Below are positions 14,423-23,922 of a stretch of DNA of 64,000 bases, one piece after another. Position 1 is the first letter of the stretch, and every line of letters starts with the position of its first letter. The DNA is from an uncultured Armatimonadota bacterium (GTDB lineage Bacteria > Armatimonadota > Fimbriimonadia > Fimbriimonadales > Fimbriimonadaceae): positions 124,001-188,000 of the forward strand of contig CAIYLG010000014.1 of assembly GCA_903927025.1 (NCBI GenBank), read 5' to 3'. The notes beneath the pieces are model-generated. The model was not told the DNA's origin and made no database searches. It saw only the letters and a list, made by a program, of their open reading frames with translations. A program made the position numbers and the translations under genes.

Positions 14423-17400
14423 ATGGAATCTGAACCGATCTTTTATGACCCGCAGGGCAAGCGCCGAGTGCGGATGTCTCGGTTCGCTGCGATTGTAAGC
14501 ACAATCGTTGCCGTCGCCAGCACACTATTCGCGGTCATCCTTTGCTTCACCATTCCGGCGCTGAGCGATCCGACTACGAAGGCTCACAAGAACGCCGGTC
14601 TGCTCTCAACCCTTCCGGACAGTACGGCACGCCGATCGATCATCTTCGATAACAAGACTCGAAAAGATCTGCTGAGCCTGATCTCGCAGACAAAGAACAA
14701 AGTCAAGAATCCGCCCACGCATGTGGAGAAGATCATTGCAGGGTTCTACGCTCCTTGGGAAGAATCGGGAGTTCACTCGCTCAGCGCGTACAAGGATCAC
14801 TTAACTCATGTGATTCCGGCTTGGCTCTCTCTCAATCCCGATGGCAAGAGCATCAACTATTCGGACTTCAATCTCGACGAGAATCCTAAGAATGAGCGTG
14901 TCTTGGAGATCGCCCACAGTGTCGGGCTGCGCATCGTCCCTCTGATCAGCAACAGTCGGCTCGGAAACTGGAATCCGCAATCTGTCCATCAACTTTTGAG
15001 CTCACCTGCGAATCAGGCTTCGATCGTGAGTCAGCTGCTTTCCTGGGTTGAGAAGAATCGATTCCAGGGCATCAACATCGACTTCGAGGAACTGGAGGAA
15101 GAGGACTATCCGAAGCTTCCACATTTTGTGGCTCTGCTTCACAACGCATTCCATCCTATGCAGCTTGGTGTCAGCGTTGATGTAGAGGCGTCAACGGACT
15201 CGGCTCAAGTGAAGTCCCTTGCCGATTCATGTGACTGGCTGATGATGATGGTCTACGACCAGCATGCTGAAGAGGACCCTCCCGGTCCAATCGCAAGCTT
15301 GGATTGGTGCAACTCGGTTCTTCAAAAGACGCTCAGTATCATTCCGCCTGAGAAGGTCGTGCTTGGTATTGGCAACTATGCCTACGACTGGCAAGAGGGA
15401 AGTACCCAGCCAGCAGACAGCATGAGCTTCCAGGAAGCAATGGACACGGCTAAGGGCTACACCGATGCCGACCCGTCCAAGGTCATTCATTTCGATCCGG
15501 ATAGCCTCAACAGTTGGTTCAACTACCAAGACGACAGCGAAAAAATGCATCACGTCTGGATACTTGATGCGGCGGCAGCCTATAACCAGTGGCTCTCGGC
15601 AAGAGGTTACGGATTGCGTGGTGCGGCAGTTTGGGCGTTGGGGCAAGAGGACCCTGGGATTTGGACCTTTATGGGCCCGACTGCTTTCACCAAGGAAATG
15701 CATCCCTCGTCTCTGGAATCAGTTCGCTTTCCCTACTTTGTGTCCAACGTTGGAAAGGGAGAAATCCTCAGAGTTCAGGATTATCCGACCGAGGGTCGAA
15801 GAAATTTCAAGGTTGACTCAGACGGGCTGATCACCGATGAGCACTATCTTGAATATGCATTTCCTTATGTGCTTCAGCACTCTGGGTACGTCGAGAAGAA
15901 GCTGTGCATCACGTTTGACGATGGACCGGATCCGACCTACACGCCCAAGATTCTTGATGCGCTGAAAGAGCTGAAGATCCCGGCAACATTCTTCATCGTC
16001 GGGAAGAACGCAGAAGAACATTCAAACCTCGTTCAAAGGGAATATGACGAAGGGCATGAAGTTGGGAATCACACTTTTTCTCACCCTGACCTCGGCTCGA
16101 TCAGTTCATTCCGGGCTGAGCTTGAGATCAACGCAACCCAGCGAGTCATCGAAACAATTCTGGGCAAGTCGACCGTTCTCTTTAGGCCTCCGTACAACGC
16201 AGACTCTGAGCCTTCAAGCAAGGAAGAACTGGTCCCAGTTGCCCTGGCCGCTCAGCTCCACTATGTAACGGTTGGAGAGAAGATTGATCCGCAGGACTGG
16301 AATCTGTGGGTCACCAATCGCAACGGCGGGTCAAGAGTCAAAACGGCGCAGGACATCGCCACCGACGTCGTCAGCCAGATCAAGCATTTTGAGTCGTCTG
16401 GAGATGAAGGAAACATCATCCTGCTCCATGATGCCGGCGGCGACCGCGATGCTACGATTGGGGCGCTGAAAATTTTTGTGCCTGAGCTCCAACGGGAGAA
16501 ATATCGATTCGTAAGCGTCGCCGAACTCATGGGCAAAACTCGTGCTCAAGTGATGCCGGATACGCTTCCATCCGAGCGGCTTACGATTCTGCTTGCGAAA
16601 ATTGAATTTGGAGCAGTATTCACGGCGGACTGGCTCTTGGCAATTGGTTTCCTTGCCGCCATTTGGCTCGGCTTCGCGCGCTTGGCGCTGATCATGCCTC
16701 TCGCTCTGATCCACAATTTTAGGCAGAAGCGGTTGATCTATAACCCCGATTTCAAGCCTGAAGTCGCCGTTATTATCGCCGCCTTCAATGAAGAGACAGT
16801 CATAGCGCGCACGATCGCAAGTGCACTTGGATCTGAGTATCCGATCAGCGAAGTGATCGTGGTGAACGATGGTTCAACCGATGGTACTGCTCAGGCAGTT
16901 CAGGAAATATACGGAGATGACCCAAGGGTCAAGCTGATCAATCGAGAAAATGGCGGGAAGTCAGCGGCTCTGAACCAGGCAATTAGGCAGTGCAGGTCGG
17001 AACTGTACCTCTCGGTGGATGCCGATACTCAAGTTGATCCCAGCGCGCTGGGTTACCTCGTTCGCCACTTCGAGGACCCTAAGGTTGCCGCGGTTGCAGG
17101 AAACGTCAAAGTTGGCAACCAAGTCAACATCCTCACGCAGTGGCAGGCGGTGGAGTACACAACTAGCCAGAATATCGATCGTCGTGCTTACGCCCTTCTG
17201 AATAGCATCACCGTCGTTCCTGGAGCTATCGGGGTGTGGCGCACGGAGGCCGTTCAGCAAGTTGGGCTCTATGTTAACGATACGCTGGCGGAGGATATGG
17301 ACCTCACGTGGCGGTTGCGCCAGAAGGGATACCGACTAGAGAATGAGTCTCTGGCGATGGCCTACACAGAGGCGCCTGAGAGCTTCCGATCCTTCTTTAA

Positions 17401-17893
17401 GCAGAGATTCAGATGGGCTTACGGAACCCTTCAATGCCTCGCGAAGCACCGTCGAGCCCTGTTTCACAACGGATTTTTCGGTTGGCTCGCGCTTCCAACT
17501 CTATGGCTGTTTCAGATCGTATTCCAAGCGTTGGCGCCTCTAGTTGACCTTCAGGTCATTTACTCGCTATGCGGCTACGTGGCGGCGTTTGTACAGCATC
17601 GACTCCATCCAGATGCAGAGTTCTCGAACCTGCCGTCCGCGTCTGCGTCATTGATGCAGGTCGGGTTCCTTTATGTGGTGTTCTTTGGTGCTGAACTCGT
17701 CTCTGGCTTTATCGCCTATCGACTGGAGCGAGAGAAATATGGCGCCCTGTGGTGGCTTTTCCTCCAGCGGTTTGCTTACCGGCAGATTATGTACGGGGTG
17801 ATGTACCGGTCCATGATCCGAGCGATTGGGGGCAACCGTCAGGGATGGGGCAAAGTGGACCGCAAAGGGACCGTAAACCTACCCAAACATTAG
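14423..17893 (+). CDS. GH18-like / polysaccharide deacetylase / GT2 synthase fusion
   Basis: 1156-residue, three-enzyme protein. A membrane anchor (about 20-45) is followed by a GH18-type TIM barrel (about 100-430) with FQGINIDFEELE. This keeps the catalytic Asp/Glu pair (D220, E222) of the DxxDxDxE motif but has Q and N at the first two Asp positions, as in YaaH-like hydrolases. A NodB-type polysaccharide deacetylase follows (about 490-700: LCITFDDGPD, GHEVGNHTFSHPDL, LFRPPYNAD, IILLHDAGG). After more membrane helices comes a processive GT2 (about 780-1010: VIIAAFNEE, VVNDGSTDG, LSVDADTQVD, EDMDLTWRLRQKG, QRFRW) and C-terminal helices. It should polymerise an N-acetylhexosamine chain (PNAG- or chitin-like), deacetylate it and trim it. 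It follows the acyltransferase gene by 15 bp. Confidence 0.93.
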   Translation: MESEPIFYDPQGKRRVRMSRFAAIVSTIVAVASTLFAVILCFTIPALSDPTTKAHKNAGLLSTLPDSTARRSIIFDNKTRKDLLSLISQTKNKVKNPPTHVEKIIAGFYAPWEESGVHSLSAYKDHLTHVIPAWLSLNPDGKSINYSDFNLDENPKNERVLEIAHSVGLRIVPLISNSRLGNWNPQSVHQLLSSPANQASIVSQLLSWVEKNRFQGINIDFEELEEEDYPKLPHFVALLHNAFHPMQLGVSVDVEASTDSAQVKSLADSCDWLMMMVYDQHAEEDPPGPIASLDWCNSVLQKTLSIIPPEKVVLGIGNYAYDWQEGSTQPADSMSFQEAMDTAKGYTDADPSKVIHFDPDSLNSWFNYQDDSEKMHHVWILDAAAAYNQWLSARGYGLRGAAVWALGQEDPGIWTFMGPTAFTKEMHPSSLESVRFPYFVSNVGKGEILRVQDYPTEGRRNFKVDSDGLITDEHYLEYAFPYVLQHSGYVEKKLCITFDDGPDPTYTPKILDALKELKIPATFFIVGKNAEEHSNLVQREYDEGHEVGNHTFSHPDLGSISSFRAELEINATQRVIETILGKSTVLFRPPYNADSEPSSKEELVPVALAAQLHYVTVGEKIDPQDWNLWVTNRNGGSRVKTAQDIATDVVSQIKHFESSGDEGNIILLHDAGGDRDATIGALKIFVPELQREKYRFVSVAELMGKTRAQVMPDTLPSERLTILLAKIEFGAVFTADWLLAIGFLAAIWLGFARLALIMPLALIHNFRQKRLIYNPDFKPEVAVIIAAFNEETVIARTIASALGSEYPISEVIVVNDGSTDGTAQAVQEIYGDDPRVKLINRENGGKSAALNQAIRQCRSELYLSVDADTQVDPSALGYLVRHFEDPKVAAVAGNVKVGNQVNILTQWQAVEYTTSQNIDRRAYALLNSITVVPGAIGVWRTEAVQQVGLYVNDTLAEDMDLTWRLRQKGYRLENESLAMAYTEAPESFRSFFKQRFRWAYGTLQCLAKHRRALFHNGFFGWLALPTLWLFQIVFQALAPLVDLQVIYSLCGYVAAFVQHRLHPDAEFSNLPSASASLMQVGFLYVVFFGAELVSGFIAYRLEREKYGALWWLFLQRFAYRQIMYGVMYRSMIRAIGGNRQGWGKVDRKGTVNLPKH

Positions 17894-17900
17894 GGGGATT

Positions 17901-17976
17901 TGGCCCGGACGAAGGGACTCGAACCCCCAACCCTCAGTTCCGAAGACTGATGCTCTATCCATTGAGCTACGTCCGG
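17901..17976 (-). tRNA. tRNA-Arg (anticodon TCG), CCA encoded
   Basis: A complete cloverleaf is readable on the minus strand. The 7-bp acceptor stem begins CCGGACG and pairs with CGTCCGG. It is followed by TAGCTC (D arm), anticodon stem TCAGT/ACTGA enclosing the seven-base loop CTTCGGA (anticodon TCG, reading CGA), a T arm with GGTTCGAGTCC, discriminator G and an encoded CCA. It lies immediately after the convergent synthase gene and borders the mobile region on its other side. Confidence 0.95.
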
Positions 17977-17996: not shown

Positions 17997-18249
17997 CCAT
18001 CCAACTAGGGCAGCTTGCCCGGGGACGCTGGCAAACCCCCCACATTTCGAGGATTGCTCTCCATGTGCTGCGTTCCAGCAACCTGGTGACCGGTTCAACG
18101 AACGCCAAAGGCATTCCGAGCATGTAATAGCCTAGGGTTGGCGCTCCTGCGCCTACCCTAGGTCGGGGTGACCGCACGGGAACGACGGCAGTGCGGTTAA
18201 GTCCGGAAGATGGATGGACGTACATTGATTTGGTAGCCTCCGTCTTCAC

Positions 18250-18408
18250 CTTCACCGCAAGTGCCATCCACATGCCGCGCAATTCTGCAGCAGCAGTGCC
18301 TCGGTTGATTCGGCATGTGGCGGCGATTTGCTTCACGCTCGAGCTGTGCGATAGATGCAGACGCGCCACTTCACGAATCTTGTTCATCTCTATAGGTCTC
18401 CTTGACAC
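18250..18408 (-). pseudogene. IS21-family transposase (IstA) N-terminal remnant
   Basis: The frame begins MSRRPIEMNKIREVARLHLS followed by a helix-turn-helix (VKQIAATCRINRGTAAAEL). That is the standard N-terminus of IS21-type IstA transposases (MNKIREVLRLH..., QIAxxLxISRxTV). Only about 50 residues are convincing. The frame stays open to 17890 but the rest does not resemble IstA and runs through the tRNA gene. The catalytic DDE domain and the IstB ATPase are missing, so this is a dead fragment. Its upstream side carries the repeat array expected of an IS21 end. Confidence 0.7.
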
Positions 18409-18498
18409 CTCATGCTCCCAACCCCGCCCAAGGGACGGAGCTATGAGGCCAGACGTGAGACCACGACAAAGGAAGCTTCAGAAACATCGAGTCTCGAG

Positions 18499-18712
18499 TG
18501 TCCGCCCTTCACGCAAACCGCGTTCGCTTTCTCCGCAAATCCCGCCCGCTTAAAACGCAAACCCTGTCCGCTTGAAACGCAATTTGCGTCCGGATTCCGC
18601 GCAATTCGGCATGCGTATTCGTGTCCGGATTAAGGGCCACTTAGTGTCCGGATATTTAGCCCCTACTGTCCGGCTTGAGGACGATTCGGTGTCCGGATTG
18701 AGGTGGATTCAG
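18499..18712. repeat. Tandem array of about nine 22-23 bp units, likely IS21-type terminus
   Basis: Units begin at 18499, 18521, 18543, 18565, 18587, 18622, 18645, 18667 and 18690, each opening with a TGTCCGGATT-like core and mostly carrying GC-AAT towards the unit end; one 13-bp partial unit sits at 18609. The spacing of 22-23 bp equals about two helical turns, as expected for repeated protein binding on one face. Known IS21 elements carry multiple internal repeats at their ends as transposase-binding sites. The position, 90 bp upstream of the istA-like start, fits a left end. The earliest three units are the most degenerate. Confidence 0.75.
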
Positions 18713-18808
18713 CAAATTATTCAAACTGAACAGTTCGGCCAAGGCCAAGGCATCTATGGAACAGCGCTAACAACAGCTTTGCGAATGAGCCTCAGAAAAT
18801 GGGGCCCG

Positions 18809-18843
18809 CATCTACAGTTGCGCTGACTTTCTTTTTGTACGCC
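18809..18843 (-). repeat. 35-bp sequence shared with 22008-22042 (copy 1)
   Basis: 30 of 35 positions match the second copy. On the minus strand both can be read as AY(K/R)KKVSATVD. In copy 2 this belongs to the third RHS-linked small gene. Here the frame stops five codons later, so it is probably a remnant of a related gene or a recombination scar. The surrounding 18713-18951 shows no other gene. Confidence 0.6.
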
Positions 18844-18951
18844 AGGCGCGCGTAGTTTCGGATCGATTGACGTGGAGCCCGAAGGGCACTTTGGCTTTGA
18901 ATGGGCGTCCAGAGTCGCACGCAAAAGATACACGGCGGCAACTCGTGCGCC

Positions 18952-19299
18952 CTATAGAGCCGACATCACTGCTGCCAGGGAATAGCTGCTAAATTTGCCA
19001 TCTGCCCCGTATTTTACGTCGACAGAAGTTTCGCGAAACGAGAACCCGCCGAGCAAAAGGTTTGGAGGGATCATGTCGGTGGTATCTTCGAGGCGTCTGG
19101 GCGCGTACCCTCGCGACTCGAAGCAGTGACGCACTTCTATCTTCGTCCTACCAGGAAGGCAACAGGATGAAGCGTCGTAAATCAAGTTCACCTCAGCCCC
19201 TAGATTTCTCGTCCGGATTTCACTCGAGGCAATAAAGGCGAGGACAGCAATGCATCCGCAGGCTTGAGCGGTTTTAAGGAGTTTCGGAGTGGTGATCAT
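18952..19299 (-). CDS. Small membrane-anchored/exported protein paired with RHS tip 1 (candidate immunity)
   Basis: 115 residues with an N-terminal hydrophobic segment (AQACGCIAVLAFIASS) and no recognised domain; the rest is short strands with three more cysteines. The ATG overlaps the stop of the RHS fragment upstream by 4 nt (ATGA). This coupling, the small size and the position directly after a variable RHS C-terminus are the marks of an immunity gene in polymorphic toxin loci. A signal or anchor would place the protein in the envelope. Function is inferred from context only; there is no sequence homology I can name. Confidence 0.6.
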   Translation of the reverse strand: MITTPKLLKTAQACGCIAVLAFIASSEIRTRNLGAEVNLIYDASSCCLPGRTKIEVRHCFESRGYAPRRLEDTTDMIPPNLLLGGFSFRETSVDVKYGADGKFSSYSLAAVMSAL

Positions 19300-20147
19300 G
19301 GATGGGGAGCGTCGTTATATGGGACTTTGATGTTCCAGCCTGGAGCCCAGGGAAGATCGCCTCCTGGTAATTTTGAGATTGCGTGGCTGTATTGCTTCAT
19401 GAGACCCGCTTTCAGGAGCAAGTAATGAGCCCAGGTATTACTGTTTGCGGTAGCTCCGCCCCAAAGATGCAGACCATCTGTTGGCAGTGGTGCATAGTCC
19501 TGCGGCGGTTTAGAAGCGATGTCAGCCTCAATTGCTTTGAATTTATCGATCCAATGTTTGGCAGGCGAATTATCGTCCACAAGTGTCATTGTACGCCGAT
19601 CTCCGGTTGGCTGCTTATGCCATTTGTCGTAATCCATCGTACCTGTCAACCAAGGTCCAGAATGTGAAACTAGATGACCTACCTTGGCGATGCCAAACCG
19701 CTCGGGCCCACCAGCGAAGCTGTATGGCTTTTCATGGCCGATATTATCGATTACGACGATGCCGCGGTGCCAGCCATATGCAAAAACCCTATAGCTAATG
19801 ACACGAATGATGACCAACCCACTCGGATCCGCGAAGGAAATTGGATTCCCTTCGCAGTACTCATAAACATTTATCCCGCCGTCCAATCCAGCCGGATCAC
19901 GTGAGAGCCACCGGCCAATATTCGGATCGTAGAATCGATTCTGGCAGTAGATGAGCCCGCTGCCGCCTTCGGTGTAGTAGCCGTATTGCCCTTTGTACTG
20001 GAACGGCTGCGAGCTGGCCAAGCTGTAGGCGCTGGTAACCGGGGTAACGGCGGGCAAGGCTGTCGACGGTTTTCCGCAGGAGGTACGCCCGGTTGACCAA
20101 TCGAACTGTATTCGGATTCCCACGCGCTCATCAAAGGAGCCATGCAC
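19296..20147 (-). CDS. Truncated RHS core with variable C-terminal domain (tip 1)
   Basis: 283-residue frame. Residues about 25-110 are the end of an RHS/YD-repeat shell: YKGQYGYYTEGGSGLIYC, NRFYDPNIGRWLSRDPAGLDG, NVYEYCEGNPISFADPSGL. This is the conserved motif after which polymorphic toxins switch to their tip. Residues 112-283 are the tip, with YGWHRGIVVIDN (H127) and NSNTWAHYLLLKAGL (235-249). That pattern recalls papain-like/NlpC-type peptidase tips, but with Ser where Cys would be expected; this is weak. Everything before residue 25 comes from an IS-derived sequence in another frame, so the listed ATG is adventitious and no signal peptide is visible. The frame may be silent or translated from another start. 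It is coupled to the next small gene by ATGA. Confidence 0.7.
   Translation of the reverse strand: MHGSFDERVGIRIQFDWSTGRTSCGKPSTALPAVTPVTSAYSLASSQPFQYKGQYGYYTEGGSGLIYCQNRFYDPNIGRWLSRDPAGLDGGINVYEYCEGNPISFADPSGLVIIRVISYRVFAYGWHRGIVVIDNIGHEKPYSFAGGPERFGIAKVGHLVSHSGPWLTGTMDYDKWHKQPTGDRRTMTLVDDNSPAKHWIDKFKAIEADIASKPPQDYAPLPTDGLHLWGGATANSNTWAHYLLLKAGLMKQYSHAISKLPGGDLPWAPGWNIKVPYNDAPHP
19850..20076 (-). repeat. RHS core duplicate, copy 1 (227 bp)
   Basis: Aligns without gaps and with roughly 90 percent identity by eye to 21312-21538. The copy ends abruptly at 20076, exactly where the transposase-like sequence begins. Coding divergence starts right after the conserved core on the other side. Confidence 0.85.
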
Positions 20148-20250
20148 TCATCGCACAAAGACCGGATCGTGCGAAGAGGATGATCCTCAGGAATCTTGCT
20201 GTCCAGCGAAGTCAAACCGAATAGCTGCTTCTGGGGTTTCTCGCGGCCTA
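20077..20250 (-). pseudogene. IS1182/IS5-like transposase N-terminal remnant
   Basis: The minus-strand frame reads QKQLFGLTSLDSKIPEDHPL, then RTIRSLCDECMAPL and YSSIGQPGVPPA. This closely follows the N-terminus of IS1182-type transposases (xRIPxDHPLRxIR..., LYSxxGRPSIPPE). It breaks off at PPA, where the RHS core copy begins in a different frame. About 58 residues remain and there is no catalytic domain. It marks the recombination joint that beheaded RHS tip 1. Confidence 0.8.
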
Positions 20251-20338
20251 CCACAAAATAGAGACGAACAAGTTTTAAGCAAATAGGCAGGTTCGGCAAC
20301 AGCTTCCTAGCGATCTAAGCGGCCATTTCCGCATCCTG

Positions 20339-20743
20339 CTAGGGCCGCTTGGTAGGCCCCATGAAGTAGTAGAAGCCGGAGTTGTGATCTTTGCAATCGT
20401 AACCTGAAAAGTCCAGCATTTTGGTTTGCTCAAAATGCATTAGATACGAGCCGGAAAATATCAGGATAATCCTGTCATTCGAGGCTGGTATCTGCTTTAA
20501 CGAAAGATCAAAGGTTTTCCCAAGGTCGCTGATGTTCTTTAGGTATTCTAGCTTTGCGCGACTCATTAGCTCTGTAGTTGACTCGGGCCACCTTCCCCAA
20601 ACACAACGAAATCTGTAATAGGCTACGATGTAGTTGCGCCCGGCTAATCGTCCGAAATCTTGCGATATTGACTTCGCGATCTGAATGCAAATTACTAGAA
20701 GAAGCCCTCCAACTAGCGAAAATAAAGAAACTCGTCTTCTCAA
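20339..20743 (-). CDS. Small membrane-anchored protein paired with RHS tip 2 (candidate immunity)
   Basis: 134 residues: basic start MRRRVSLF, one membrane segment (SLVGGLLLVICIQIA) and an extracytoplasmic domain of about 105 residues with no family I recognise. The ATG overlaps the stop of RHS tip 2 by 4 nt (ATGA), exactly as in the first cassette. The gene is complete. As in cassette 1, an envelope location suggests that the cognate tip acts outside the cytoplasm. The immunity role is inferred from organisation. About 90 bp separate it from the IS remnant downstream. Confidence 0.65.
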   Translation of the reverse strand: MRRRVSLFSLVGGLLLVICIQIAKSISQDFGRLAGRNYIVAYYRFRCVWGRWPESTTELMSRAKLEYLKNISDLGKTFDLSLKQIPASNDRIILIFSGSYLMHFEQTKMLDFSGYDCKDHNSGFYYFMGPTKRP

Positions 20744-21699
20744 TGTGGGGGCCGCCCATATATATAATTCCTAGAATGATCATTATAATGCGTCTTGGGC
20801 GGATTATCGAAAGGCTTGATGTAGTGGTATTTCTTTCCCCGTGCCCCAGATGTTGGGTTCACAGTCCATCCTTCGAATCCGTACACTTCGTCGGATAATT
20901 CCAGTAAAGCATTCACCAGATAATGGTCTGAACAAACGCAGCACTCTTCAATATCGATACACTTCAACTTCGGCAAGTGCTTCTTTCTGCGTAATGCAGC
21001 GTATTTGTTAAGATTGTCTGCTTCGACTTTATCATTGTCATCAATATTGTAATAGAGAAGCCCATCATTTCCGTGGCCAACAATTGTGACTGAATTGAAG
21101 GTGTTGCTAGTGAGGATCGCTTTAAATAGCCCGCTGGACATGTTATCAAAATCGTCACGTACGGAGGTGATATTCTTCCATGCCCCAAGCATTGAAGGCC
21201 TGAACAGCATTTTGGAAAAGCGCGCTACCCCTTGATTATCACGAAAGATTATTGCTTCTCTGATTTGGAAACTGTCAAGCCCGTCCGGATCGACTTCCAT
21301 GATCGGATTGTCTTCGCAATACTCATATACATTCAACCCTCCATCCAACCCTGCCGGATCGCGGGAAATCCATCGGCCAATATTCGGATCATAAAACCGA
21401 TTCATGCAGTAGATGAGCCCGCTGCCCCCCTCGGTGTAGTAGCCGTATTGCCCTTTGTACTGGAACGGCTGCGAGCTGGCCAAACTGTAGGCGCCGGTAA
21501 CCGGGGTAACAGCGGGCAAGGCTGTCGACGGTTTTCCGTACGCATCGTATAGAACCGGCGCCTGGAACGAAGGCGCACCCAAGTAACCGTCGACGATCAT
21601 CTCGGTGCTGCAGTTCGAGTCGTAGTTGAAGGTGCGTCTGAATGGTGTCTTGCCCCATTTCAGGAAGATTCTGCGAATTGATATTCCTAGAGGAGTCAT
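20740..21699 (-). CDS. Truncated RHS core with caspase-like C-terminal domain (tip 2)
   Basis: 319 residues. About 20-140 are RHS shell: FRRTFNYDSN, LYDAYGKPS, QYGYYTEGGSGLIYC, FYDPNIGRWISRDPAGLDGG, NVYEYCEDNP, VDPDGLDS. The tip (142-319) has a hydrophobic strand ending in GHG (VTIVGHGNDG, H209), then a strand ending in acidic-Cys (CIDIEECCVC, C253-C256), spaced as the His-Cys dyad of caspase/gingipain-type (clan CD) peptidases. The frame begins after an in-frame stop near 21730. A further ATG at 21784 in another frame overlaps the previous cassette's small gene, so the 5' part is frameshifted or truncated and no signal peptide is readable. The stop is coupled to the next gene (ATGA). Confidence 0.78.
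   Translation of the reverse strand: MTPLGISIRRIFLKWGKTPFRRTFNYDSNCSTEMIVDGYLGAPSFQAPVLYDAYGKPSTALPAVTPVTGAYSLASSQPFQYKGQYGYYTEGGSGLIYCMNRFYDPNIGRWISRDPAGLDGGLNVYEYCEDNPIMEVDPDGLDSFQIREAIIFRDNQGVARFSKMLFRPSMLGAWKNITSVRDDFDNMSSGLFKAILTSNTFNSVTIVGHGNDGLLYYNIDDNDKVEADNLNKYAALRRKKHLPKLKCIDIEECCVCSDHYLVNALLELSDEVYGFEGWTVNPTSGARGKKYHYIKPFDNPPKTHYNDHSRNYIYGRPPH
21312..21538 (-). repeat. RHS core duplicate, copy 2 (227 bp)
   Basis: Gap-free match to 19850-20076. Beyond 21538 this copy continues into genuine RHS sequence, so it is probably closer to the ancestral arrangement than copy 1. Confidence 0.85.
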
Positions 21700-21780
21700 G
21701 TGCGTGGGTACGGCTAGGATGAATTACCTGTGTCCCTGGATCGAAGCGCGGCAATGAACGAGTAGAAAACAAGACTCTCT

Positions 21781-22190
21781 TCATAGTCCCTTCAACTCGG
21801 CAATAACATTGCTACTATACGTTTTGAGAACCGGACGCCTAAAGCTTACGGCTATGGTTGGGTAAATCCCATATCGGGCGATCAGGACGTGCGTGCCCCA
21901 CCCCTTGACTCTTGTTTCCCCATATTCCCGATTCATTTGATCTGTAACCTGACGCAATAGATCTGATTCGATCGCTTTCCATTTAGCTCCATCAAAATCA
22001 GGGTCCTCATCTACGGTTGCGCTGACTTTCTTCCTGTATGCGGATATAAATTTCCCAGGAGCACAGATGCATACATATTCTGATCACCCTCTTCAATATT
22101 GAGGGCGCGTAGGTGCCACCCCCACATCCCTAAAAGGAAGATAACCGATACAGCCATCAAGCGCCCGATAGTGTTCTTCACCAATTTCAT
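21781..22190 (-). pseudogene. Frameshifted small membrane-anchored gene after RHS relic 3 (candidate immunity)
   Basis: On the minus strand an ATG at 22190 opens a frame with a membrane segment (LMAVSVIFLLGMWGWHL) that stops after 59 codons. In the neighbouring frame an uninterrupted stretch of about 85 codons (SAYRKKVSATVDEDPDF, KWKAIESDLLRQVTDQMNRE, YPTIAVSFRRPVL) runs to a TGA at 21781. Joined, they give about 130 residues, the size of the gene in cassette 2, so a single frameshift is likely (mutation or sequencing error). The start overlaps the stop of the RHS relic by ATGA. The end overlaps another ATG (21784) in the same way. Confidence 0.6.
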
Positions 22191-22421
22191 GCAGGTGTCC
22201 CAATTCCCTTCTTCGCTGCAACATCGAATTGCTGTATAGCATTGTTCTGCAAAACCTTCGACGGATCACGTGAGAGCCTTCGACCGATGAATTGGTCCAA
22301 CTCACCCTTGGCTGTCGCACCGACTGAGCGATACCCAGAGACGCCAGCAGATGTTATGAGGTCGGGGTTCGAGGTTTCCTCGAATCGAAGTCAAGTTGCC
22401 ACCACCATCGTAAGCGTGATT
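22187..22421 (-). pseudogene. RHS relic 3 (degraded end of a YD-repeat gene)
   Basis: A YD-repeat motif NHAYDGGGNLTSIRG is readable from 22421 in one frame. In another frame QFIGRRLSRDPS corresponds to the conserved end of the RHS shell (IGRWLSRDP). Only about 20 residues follow before a TGA at 22187 that overlaps the next ATG as ATGA. The variable tip is therefore missing. At least one frameshift separates the two pieces. The relic abuts the 3' end of the DUF1800 gene. Confidence 0.6.
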
Positions 22422-22446
22422 CAGTGGTGCCATTCTGGGCCAAGCG

Positions 22447-23922
22447 TCAGCAGAGCTGCGCTTCCGGTGATGCAAACAGGATCTTGCATAGCTTTCTCAT
22501 CGAAGCCGAAGCTCGGTTTCCGTCCGCGAATGCCTTCGCGGGTCCGCCGATGCCCTCAATTGCTTGTTCGATGACCGCATGCTTTTCTGGACTCAGGGTG
22601 ACGTCGAATAGTTCGAGGATTGCGACAGTGCATTCCTTGCTTGTGGATGTGCTGTGATCCTTAACCACCCGGTCCAGCAGCGCCTGTCCGGGAGCGCCCG
22701 TCTTCCCGCGCGGAGAGAACACGAAATCCTGAAACCGGATGCGCTCCAGCATCGTGGCAGTGGTCAGCCAGGCTTCTCCCCACTTCCACCCGCTCACGTC
22801 GAAGGGGAAGAGCAGGTCGAGGCCCTGGTTCCGCATTGTGCGGGCAAGCTGGCCCACTTCATCACCGGCGACGGGCAACATCGATTGAGTAGGCAGCTGC
22901 GTGGCCGGACGCTTGGAGGACCATCTCGAACCGACGCCGGTTTGTCGGAGCTGAGCCACTGCGAAATCAACGGGACTTTTCACCATCGTGCGCACGCAGC
23001 GATCGCTCCAGAATTCATTGGAATGAGCGATGGCCTTAAGAAGCGGCTTGATGTGGAGATCGTTCTTGTACCAAACCTTGACAAACTTGTCGATGGTGGC
23101 CGGTGTAGGGTCGTCGTAGGCAAAGAAGGAAAAGATCTTCTTCACCATTCGCTTAGCGGTAATAGGGTGATAGGCCAGAGTTCTCAGGAACATGTCTGCA
23201 TCGTAGGCAGCTGTCTTGCCCAGGATGGTCTTATGCCCCATGTCTCGCATTTCTGGCGAGAAGCTCGAAGCAACCAGGGGCCAACCATATTCAATGGCAC
23301 CCTGGATCTTCTTGTTCTGGTCGCCCCCCAGCCTCTCGTTGATCGGGTATCTCAGGCTCCAACCAAGGAAGGTTCGTGAGGCTTCCTGCACGTCTTTTTC
23401 TGAGTAGTTTCCGATGCCGAGGGTGAACAGTTCCATGACCTCGCGCGCGAAGTTTTCGTTCGGATGACCGGGCACGCTCTGGTCGACGTCGAGCCACTTG
23501 AGCATCGCGGGGGTCTTGCTGACATTTGTGAGGAGCGCAGAAAAGCTTCCCGATGCGTTTTCCCGGAGGACGTCAACGTACGTGTGCATCAAGGGTCCGA
23601 AGTCGCATTTGGATCCGCTGATCGCAAAGTGGTTGTGCCAGAAAAGAACGAGCTTTTCTTCGAGGGGGCGCTCGGTGGTGACCATTCGATACTGCCACCA
23701 GCTCCGCACCCGAGTTGGGTCTAGGCCAAACTTTGCGTCTGCCTGGACGTACCACTCCCATACTTCCGGTGTGTGTCCGACTGGCACCTTCTCGTAGTCG
23801 ATGAGGCGATCGATCGTCCCCTCAACCCCAAGGTGGAGATACTTTTCGAGTTCGAGGCGACCGGCTCCTAGGCCGAATCTGCGCAAAAGATGCGAAACCT
23901 TCTCTTCAGCAGTTAGTTCCAT
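22447..23922 (-). CDS. DUF1800 family protein
   Basis: 491 residues starting MELTAEEKVSHLLRRFGLGA, the standard opening of DUF1800 proteins (xxAxHLLxRxxFG). KLVLFWHNHFAISGSK, ENFAREVMELFTLGIGNYSE, DVQEASRTFLGW and KRMVKKIFSFFAYDDP are family hallmarks. Function is unknown. In planctomycetes, Armatimonadota and others these genes usually sit next to a DUF1501 gene; here no partner adjoins, although two DUF1501 genes lie 20-28 kb away. No signal peptide is evident. The 3' end is next to RHS relic 3, so a downstream partner may have been lost. About 270 bp of apparently non-coding DNA lie upstream. Confidence 0.92.
   Translation of the reverse strand: MELTAEEKVSHLLRRFGLGAGRLELEKYLHLGVEGTIDRLIDYEKVPVGHTPEVWEWYVQADAKFGLDPTRVRSWWQYRMVTTERPLEEKLVLFWHNHFAISGSKCDFGPLMHTYVDVLRENASGSFSALLTNVSKTPAMLKWLDVDQSVPGHPNENFAREVMELFTLGIGNYSEKDVQEASRTFLGWSLRYPINERLGGDQNKKIQGAIEYGWPLVASSFSPEMRDMGHKTILGKTAAYDADMFLRTLAYHPITAKRMVKKIFSFFAYDDPTPATIDKFVKVWYKNDLHIKPLLKAIAHSNEFWSDRCVRTMVKSPVDFAVAQLRQTGVGSRWSSKRPATQLPTQSMLPVAGDEVGQLARTMRNQGLDLLFPFDVSGWKWGEAWLTTATMLERIRFQDFVFSPRGKTGAPGQALLDRVVKDHSTSTSKECTVAILELFDVTLSPEKHAVIEQAIEGIGGPAKAFADGNRASASMRKLCKILFASPEAQLC

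Follow-up and report, generated by a model that had tools for sequence, protein, structure and literature searches.

The window examined here, 64,000 nucleotides of contig CAIYLG010000014.1 from an uncultured Armatimonadota bacterium, contains a block between a tRNA-Arg gene and a DUF1800 gene that most probably represents a decaying array of orphan Rhs C-terminal tip (Rhs-CT)/immunity cassettes. The remains of three Rhs cassettes, all on the minus strand, lie in this block, with debris of IS1182 and of immunity genes between and beside them (Table 1), and we consider the array to be decaying because one cassette has been destroyed and because of this insertion sequence (IS) debris. An earlier, sequence-only reading of the same DNA (the original prediction) had seen three repeats of one design. 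This holds for cassettes A and B, each composed of a core, a differing tip and an overlapping small gene, but not for cassette 3, which is frameshifted, deleted and tipless. The proposal that these are orphan tip/immunity modules gained support: separate enzyme domains are predicted for the tips, a relative carries tip A at the end of a full-length Rhs protein, and the products of the small genes appear to be anchored in the membrane.

The Rhs-associated core, 87 residues long, was matched twice by the NCBIfam model TIGR03696 (E = 1.5e-21 and 4.5e-21), and cores A and B are 90% identical in protein and 89% identical in DNA over 237 nt. Upstream of the cores, the Rhs homology of cassette B seems to extend to about position 21640, and the 'RHS' open reading frame (ORF) of cassette A partly overlaps an IS1182 transposase relic (19874-20299). 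The differences between the two cores lie mainly at silent sites (nonsynonymous divergence, dN, 0.086; synonymous divergence, dS, 0.57), a pattern taken to show that the core was under selection in the past, and not that it is in use now. Directly behind the conserved core ending in DPxGL start two unrelated tips, with 172 residues following DPSGL in cassette A and 178 residues following DPDGL in cassette B. At each tip stop, a small gene begins with a 4-base overlap. This overlap had been described as ATGA in all three cassettes, and it is indeed so at 19296-19299 (cassette A) and 22187-22190 (cassette 3), but 20740-20743 in cassette B reads TTGA, with TTG as the start codon. The layout of a tip followed by an adjoining small gene is seen again in further genomes that carry these tip families and, given this recurrence, would appear to be more than a product of chance.

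Structure prediction, the check that had been suggested for the tips, indicated that neither continues the Rhs shell. Each tip is instead predicted to form an enzyme domain of its own, tip B one of clan CD and tip A one that resembles permuted NlpC/P60 domains. The tips had also been considered unlike any nameable family. Indeed, neither they nor the small genes had a Pfam match above cut-off, but tip B belongs to a recognisable enzyme clan and tip A resembles a described fold class.

The assignment of tip B to clan CD, as a caspase/CHAT/legumain-like domain, is strong, and peptidase activity is predicted for it. Its model matched the CHAT protease 8tl0 (Foldseek E 5.3e-5; VIA Z 8.2, rmsd 4.3, 124 aligned), and the structures ranked below were nearly all of clan CD, including Tce1, gingipain, legumain and clostripain. 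A search against profiles of solved structures returned weak separase, CHAT and legumain matches, and relatives of tip B gave weak Pfam matches to DUF6345, C13, C50 and C25. Gly67-His68 and Cys112 are invariant in 19 of 19 sequences. In its caspase-like fold, His/Cys dyad and C-terminal position within an Rhs protein, tip B is akin to the Tox-Caspase domains (PMC3482391) and to CHAT, C11, C13 and C25 peptidases of clan CD, from which it differs in being short (about 150 aa) and too distant in sequence for any Pfam cut-off. Profile matches to tip B occur in 20 genomes, some at Rhs ends and some stand-alone, and in one genome (G159) a distant relative is fused to Rhs in a 1444-aa frame. Stand-alone relatives without an Rhs core are located at loci L108, L110, L116 and L121.

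Tip A probably works like the permuted NlpC/P60 enzymes TseH and Tox-Act1. Its AlphaFold2 model has a pLDDT of 82. Structural re-alignment with VIA placed TseH first (Z 8.7, rmsd 4.1, 136 aligned), ahead of CLN5 and 2A proteins, which fall in the same papain-like fold class. A His box precedes the nucleophile box, with His17 kept in 5 of 6 full-length tips. At the start of the helix, 8 out of 8 sequences have Asn-Ser-Asn where the fold class has Asn-Cys. In an hhalign comparison, the His box of tip A paired with that of the Cys-type Rhs tip of genome G033 at E 2.7e-4, but with a probability of 42% over 20 columns. Profiles of solved structures yielded chance-level matches alone for tip A, and a viral fold library gave no useful match. 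Matches to tip A were found in seven genomes, including that of the window, and nearly all lie behind an Rhs core; in G007, a genome of the same genus, a 70% identical relative ends a full-length Rhs protein of 1666 aa. A scan of GTDB contigs returned no named relative for the window tip and, for its relative, the organism of genome G145 alone. The latter genome, which belongs to the same family as that of the window (CP021424.1, Armatimonadetes bacterium Uphvl-Ar2), carries the same tip and arrays; at its loci L095 and L096, the tip A cassette and its partner are repeated several times over about 27 kb, the copies being nearly identical and some of them truncated.

Tox-Act1, a relative of TseH, is a phospholipase that acts in the periplasm and is paired with a membrane-associated immunity protein (PMC12994826). 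Tip A resembles Tox-Act1/Imm-Act1 and TseH (PMC12994826) in its predicted fold, in the His box ahead of a helix-capping nucleophile box and in having a membrane-associated partner. Unlike them, it has Ser for the catalytic Cys, is Rhs-borne and probably Sec-exported instead of being a type VI effector, and lacks a sequence match to Pfam families; its partner has one N-terminal anchor, compared with the two transmembrane (TM) helices of Tox-Act1/TseH-type systems.

The small genes are presumed to encode immunity proteins, given their position and membrane anchoring. Partners of the tip A and tip B families mostly carry an N-terminal hydrophobic stretch or membrane anchor or a lipobox: anchored partners accompany 9 of the 11 tips of types A and B and 4 of the 17 Rhs tips of other types (Fisher p 0.006), in a small sample of tips gathered by motif search from the fetched loci, the rows of which are not independent. 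This anchoring suggests that the tip A and tip B toxins act in the periplasm or on the periplasmic side of the inner membrane. By sequence, small gene A has no homologue in 291 genomes of the phylum and small gene B no relative in 61 related genomes. Profile comparison lent no support to a single family of tip A partners, although by eye all of them end with a strand-[D/E/K]G-strand pattern. With no homology detectable between the tip A partners of the window and of G007, the case for immunity comes from where the genes lie and from their anchors, and not from family membership. The divergence of these two partners could reflect either very fast change of the immunity genes or partner swapping. 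Tentatively, and with considerable doubt, we put forward tip A as the founder of a toxin family with a permuted NlpC/P60-like fold, in which an invariant Ser (Asn-Ser-Asn) would be the nucleophile directed against envelope lipids or peptides, and in which membrane-tethered immunity proteins at the same gene position would have diverged so far that they no longer look related, with the toxin still 70% identical.

The original prediction had noted the absence of a full-length RHS gene. None is present upstream at the locus, but full-length Rhs genes exist elsewhere in the genome. Contig 7 (L022:2950-9972) encodes an Rhs protein of 2340 aa with a signal-peptide-like start and a long N-terminal run of Ig-like-looking repeats. 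The core of this protein is 61% identical to the window cores. Since the start resembles a signal peptide and no TssC homologue was found in the window genome, Sec export appears likelier than type VI secretion for the Rhs carrier. The proposed search of related genomes for a full-length gene had a divided outcome, in that the G007 protein ends in a relative of tip A but no gene with a closely matching core was found in the draft of the window genome. In relatives, full-length Rhs genes are followed by arrays of displaced tips, as in G033, with seven cores in 12 kb. There (L100), a full-length Rhs gene with a Cys-type NlpC/P60-like tip precedes six more displaced cores.

By computation, no Shine-Dalgarno-led start precedes core A or core B; therefore, the tips are probably not produced at this locus, and the small genes might be. 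We envision that the tips are toxins silent where they stand and usable only after recombination has joined them to a full-length Rhs carrier. Tip B would then be a caspase-like cysteine peptidase, and tip A would hydrolyse acyl or peptide bonds as an enzyme of the permuted NlpC/P60 type in which Ser replaces Cys. The two toxins would work within the periplasm or from it, and the small anchored proteins would neutralise them there. The copies that are kept could protect the cell against its neighbours or be a reserve of parts.

Several observations weigh against this reading. The model of tip B is poor within its first 46 residues, at 14-46. The match of tip A to the fold of TseH has a middling Z and no Foldseek support, its model retrieving nothing below E 0.1, and the catalytic Cys of the NC box is absent from tip A, with Ser instead; for this reason, tip A is not filed as a member of Tox-Act1 or TseH. 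The tip A partners of the window and of G007 have no detectable homology, though the tips are 70% identical, and Rhs tips of other types sometimes have anchored partners too. Furthermore, no full-length Rhs gene whose core matches closely was found in the 66-contig draft, the best reaching 61% aa and 71% nt, and thus no recombination partner is in sight.

The main rival explanation, which we regard as possible but rather unlikely, is that the whole block is inert debris, with Rhs pseudogenes in the last stage of decay and tips and small genes without current function. Cassette 3, frameshifted and deleted, speaks for it. Its Rhs piece is spread over two frames, YDGGGNLTSIR and GELDQF running directly into IGRRLSRDP, with most of the core missing; the Rhs frame stops about 20 residues after SRDP, leaving no tip, and the ATGA overlap persists. 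The small gene of this cassette has no relative in the 291 phylum genomes, and the further ATG gene at 21784 that it had been said to overlap appears, from the reading frames, to be an out-of-frame reading into the Rhs fragment or leader of cassette B and not a gene. The IS remnant abutting core A, the additional immunity relic at 18802-18842 and the lack of start signals ahead of the Rhs fragments point in the same direction as cassette 3. On the other hand, tips A and B and both of their small genes are open over their full length, the catalytic-looking residues are intact in both tips, and the low dN relative to dS is set against complete decay. A different alternative, that the tips serve the Rhs carrier as peptidases for its release or processing and are not its toxic payload, draws on the finding that most caspase-like domains in polymorphic toxins are peptidases with a releasing role (Zhang et al. 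2012, PMC3482391), but C-terminal versions are likely toxins according to the same study (Zhang et al. 2012, PMC3482391), and the tip B domain comes last, behind the core, with nothing downstream except the partner gene, which makes this alternative improbable. Least probable is that the tips are stand-alone secreted or cytoplasmic enzymes, such as a defence peptidase, merely borrowing Rhs sequence: tip B relatives without an Rhs core do exist in four genomes (G052, G046, G014 and G013), but the window tips stand in frame behind a core that no usable start precedes, almost every relative of tip A is likewise found behind an Rhs core, and anchored partner genes lie directly at the tip stops.

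Interpreted as a decaying array of orphan cassettes, the block has clear precedents. Arrays of orphan rhs-CT/rhsI modules have already been described, and their tip fragments have no translation start signals (Poole et al. 2011, PMC3150448). As in the orphan rhs-CT/rhsI and cdiA-CT/cdiI modules (PMC3150448), the tips begin at a conserved core motif (DPxGL for Rhs) without start signals; each is followed by a downstream gene, for immunity there and presumably here, in a tandem array sometimes disrupted by IS elements, and the tips are related to the ends of full-length proteins elsewhere. In contrast to the orphan rhs-CT/rhsI modules (PMC3150448), the window locus has no full-length rhs upstream, belongs to Armatimonadota, carries other tip families and includes one destroyed cassette. 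The suggestion of an undescribed system is therefore not supported, given the published arrays, the full-length Rhs genes elsewhere in the genome, the relatives with full-length genes as well as such arrays, the known clan of one tip and fold class that the other resembles, and the reduction of one cassette to debris. The arrangement is already known; new are its occurrence in this lineage and two families of tips for which Pfam has no model, of which the serine variant is of most interest. These results extend orphan Rhs tip stores to the little-studied Armatimonadota and provide two testable tip families, probably acting in the periplasm, one of which has Ser where the described permuted NlpC/P60 toxins have a catalytic Cys. 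The intact full-length version of tip A in a related genome makes its function testable there.

The tRNA-Arg gene and the DUF1800 orthologue are separated by only ~40-75 bp in two genomes of the same genus, G004 and G019, in which the orthologue is 77% identical to the window gene; the window has 4.4 kb more at this site. Because the site is empty in both genomes, the simplest reading is that the ~4.4-kb block was inserted in the window lineage; its loss from the others is a possible, less simple alternative. Different neighbours flank the DUF1800 gene of G012. What stands upstream of the array is thus the DUF1800 gene without a full-length rhs, and not the full-length rhs gene behind which orphan modules are usually sited, a position that we count as typical, not obligatory.

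Table 1. Coordinates of the array, its cassettes and its borders within the window.
Feature	Position	Strand	Basis
tRNA-Arg (tcg), left border of insertion	17901-17976	-	ARAGORN; same neighbour in G004 and G019
Inserted block holding the whole array	18004-22446	.	tRNA-Arg and DUF1800 orthologue adjoin in G004, G019
Immunity-like gene relic, 41 nt	18802-18842	-	Direct repeat D6; 85% identity with part of the small gene of cassette 3
Small gene A, presumed immunity, 115 aa, hydrophobic anchor at N-terminus; start ATG within tip A stop overlap (ATGA)	18952-19299	-	
Cassette A, core and tip	19296-20075	-	
Tip A, 172 aa + stop, predicted permuted NlpC/P60-like domain; His17, Asn124-Ser125-Asn126	19296-19814	-	
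Cassette A Rhs-associated core (GKPST...DPSGL)	19815-20075	-	TIGR03696; own-genome search
IS1182-family transposase N-terminus remnant, abuts core A	20075-20242	-	NCBIfam NF033551, E 3.7e-4
Small gene B, presumed immunity, 134 aa, hydrophobic (TM-like) segment at N-terminus; start TTG within tip B stop overlap (TTGA)	20339-20743	-	
Cassette B, core and tip	20740-21537	-	
Tip B, 178 aa + stop, predicted caspase-like (clan CD) domain; His68 (GHG), Cys112	20740-21276	-	
Cassette B Rhs-associated core (...DPDGL)	21277-21537	-	TIGR03696; 90% aa identity to core A
Small gene of cassette 3, presumed immunity, broken by frameshift near 22050	21781-22190	-	Three-frame translations
Rhs core relic of cassette 3: frameshifted, internal deletion, tip lost	22187-22446	-	Three-frame translations; cf. 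YDGGGNLT of the intact contig 7 gene
DUF1800 gene, other border of the block	22447-23922		

The hydrophobic anchor of window gene A, with a mean hydropathy of 1.83, is weaker than that of gene B. A plasmid search with the DNA of the block gave matches at the tRNA gene alone, among the matches listed, and plasmid searches with both tips matched nothing. An IS21-type relic suspected from the sequence at 18290-18390 was not confirmed by further searches. Within the block, at 18500-18715, there are direct repeats of the TGTCCGGAT type and of the ACGCAAACC type, possibly IS ends. Outside the block, at 14423-17893 on the plus strand, a single ORF of 1156 aa combines glycosyl hydrolase 18, polysaccharide deacetylase and glycosyltransferase 2 domains.

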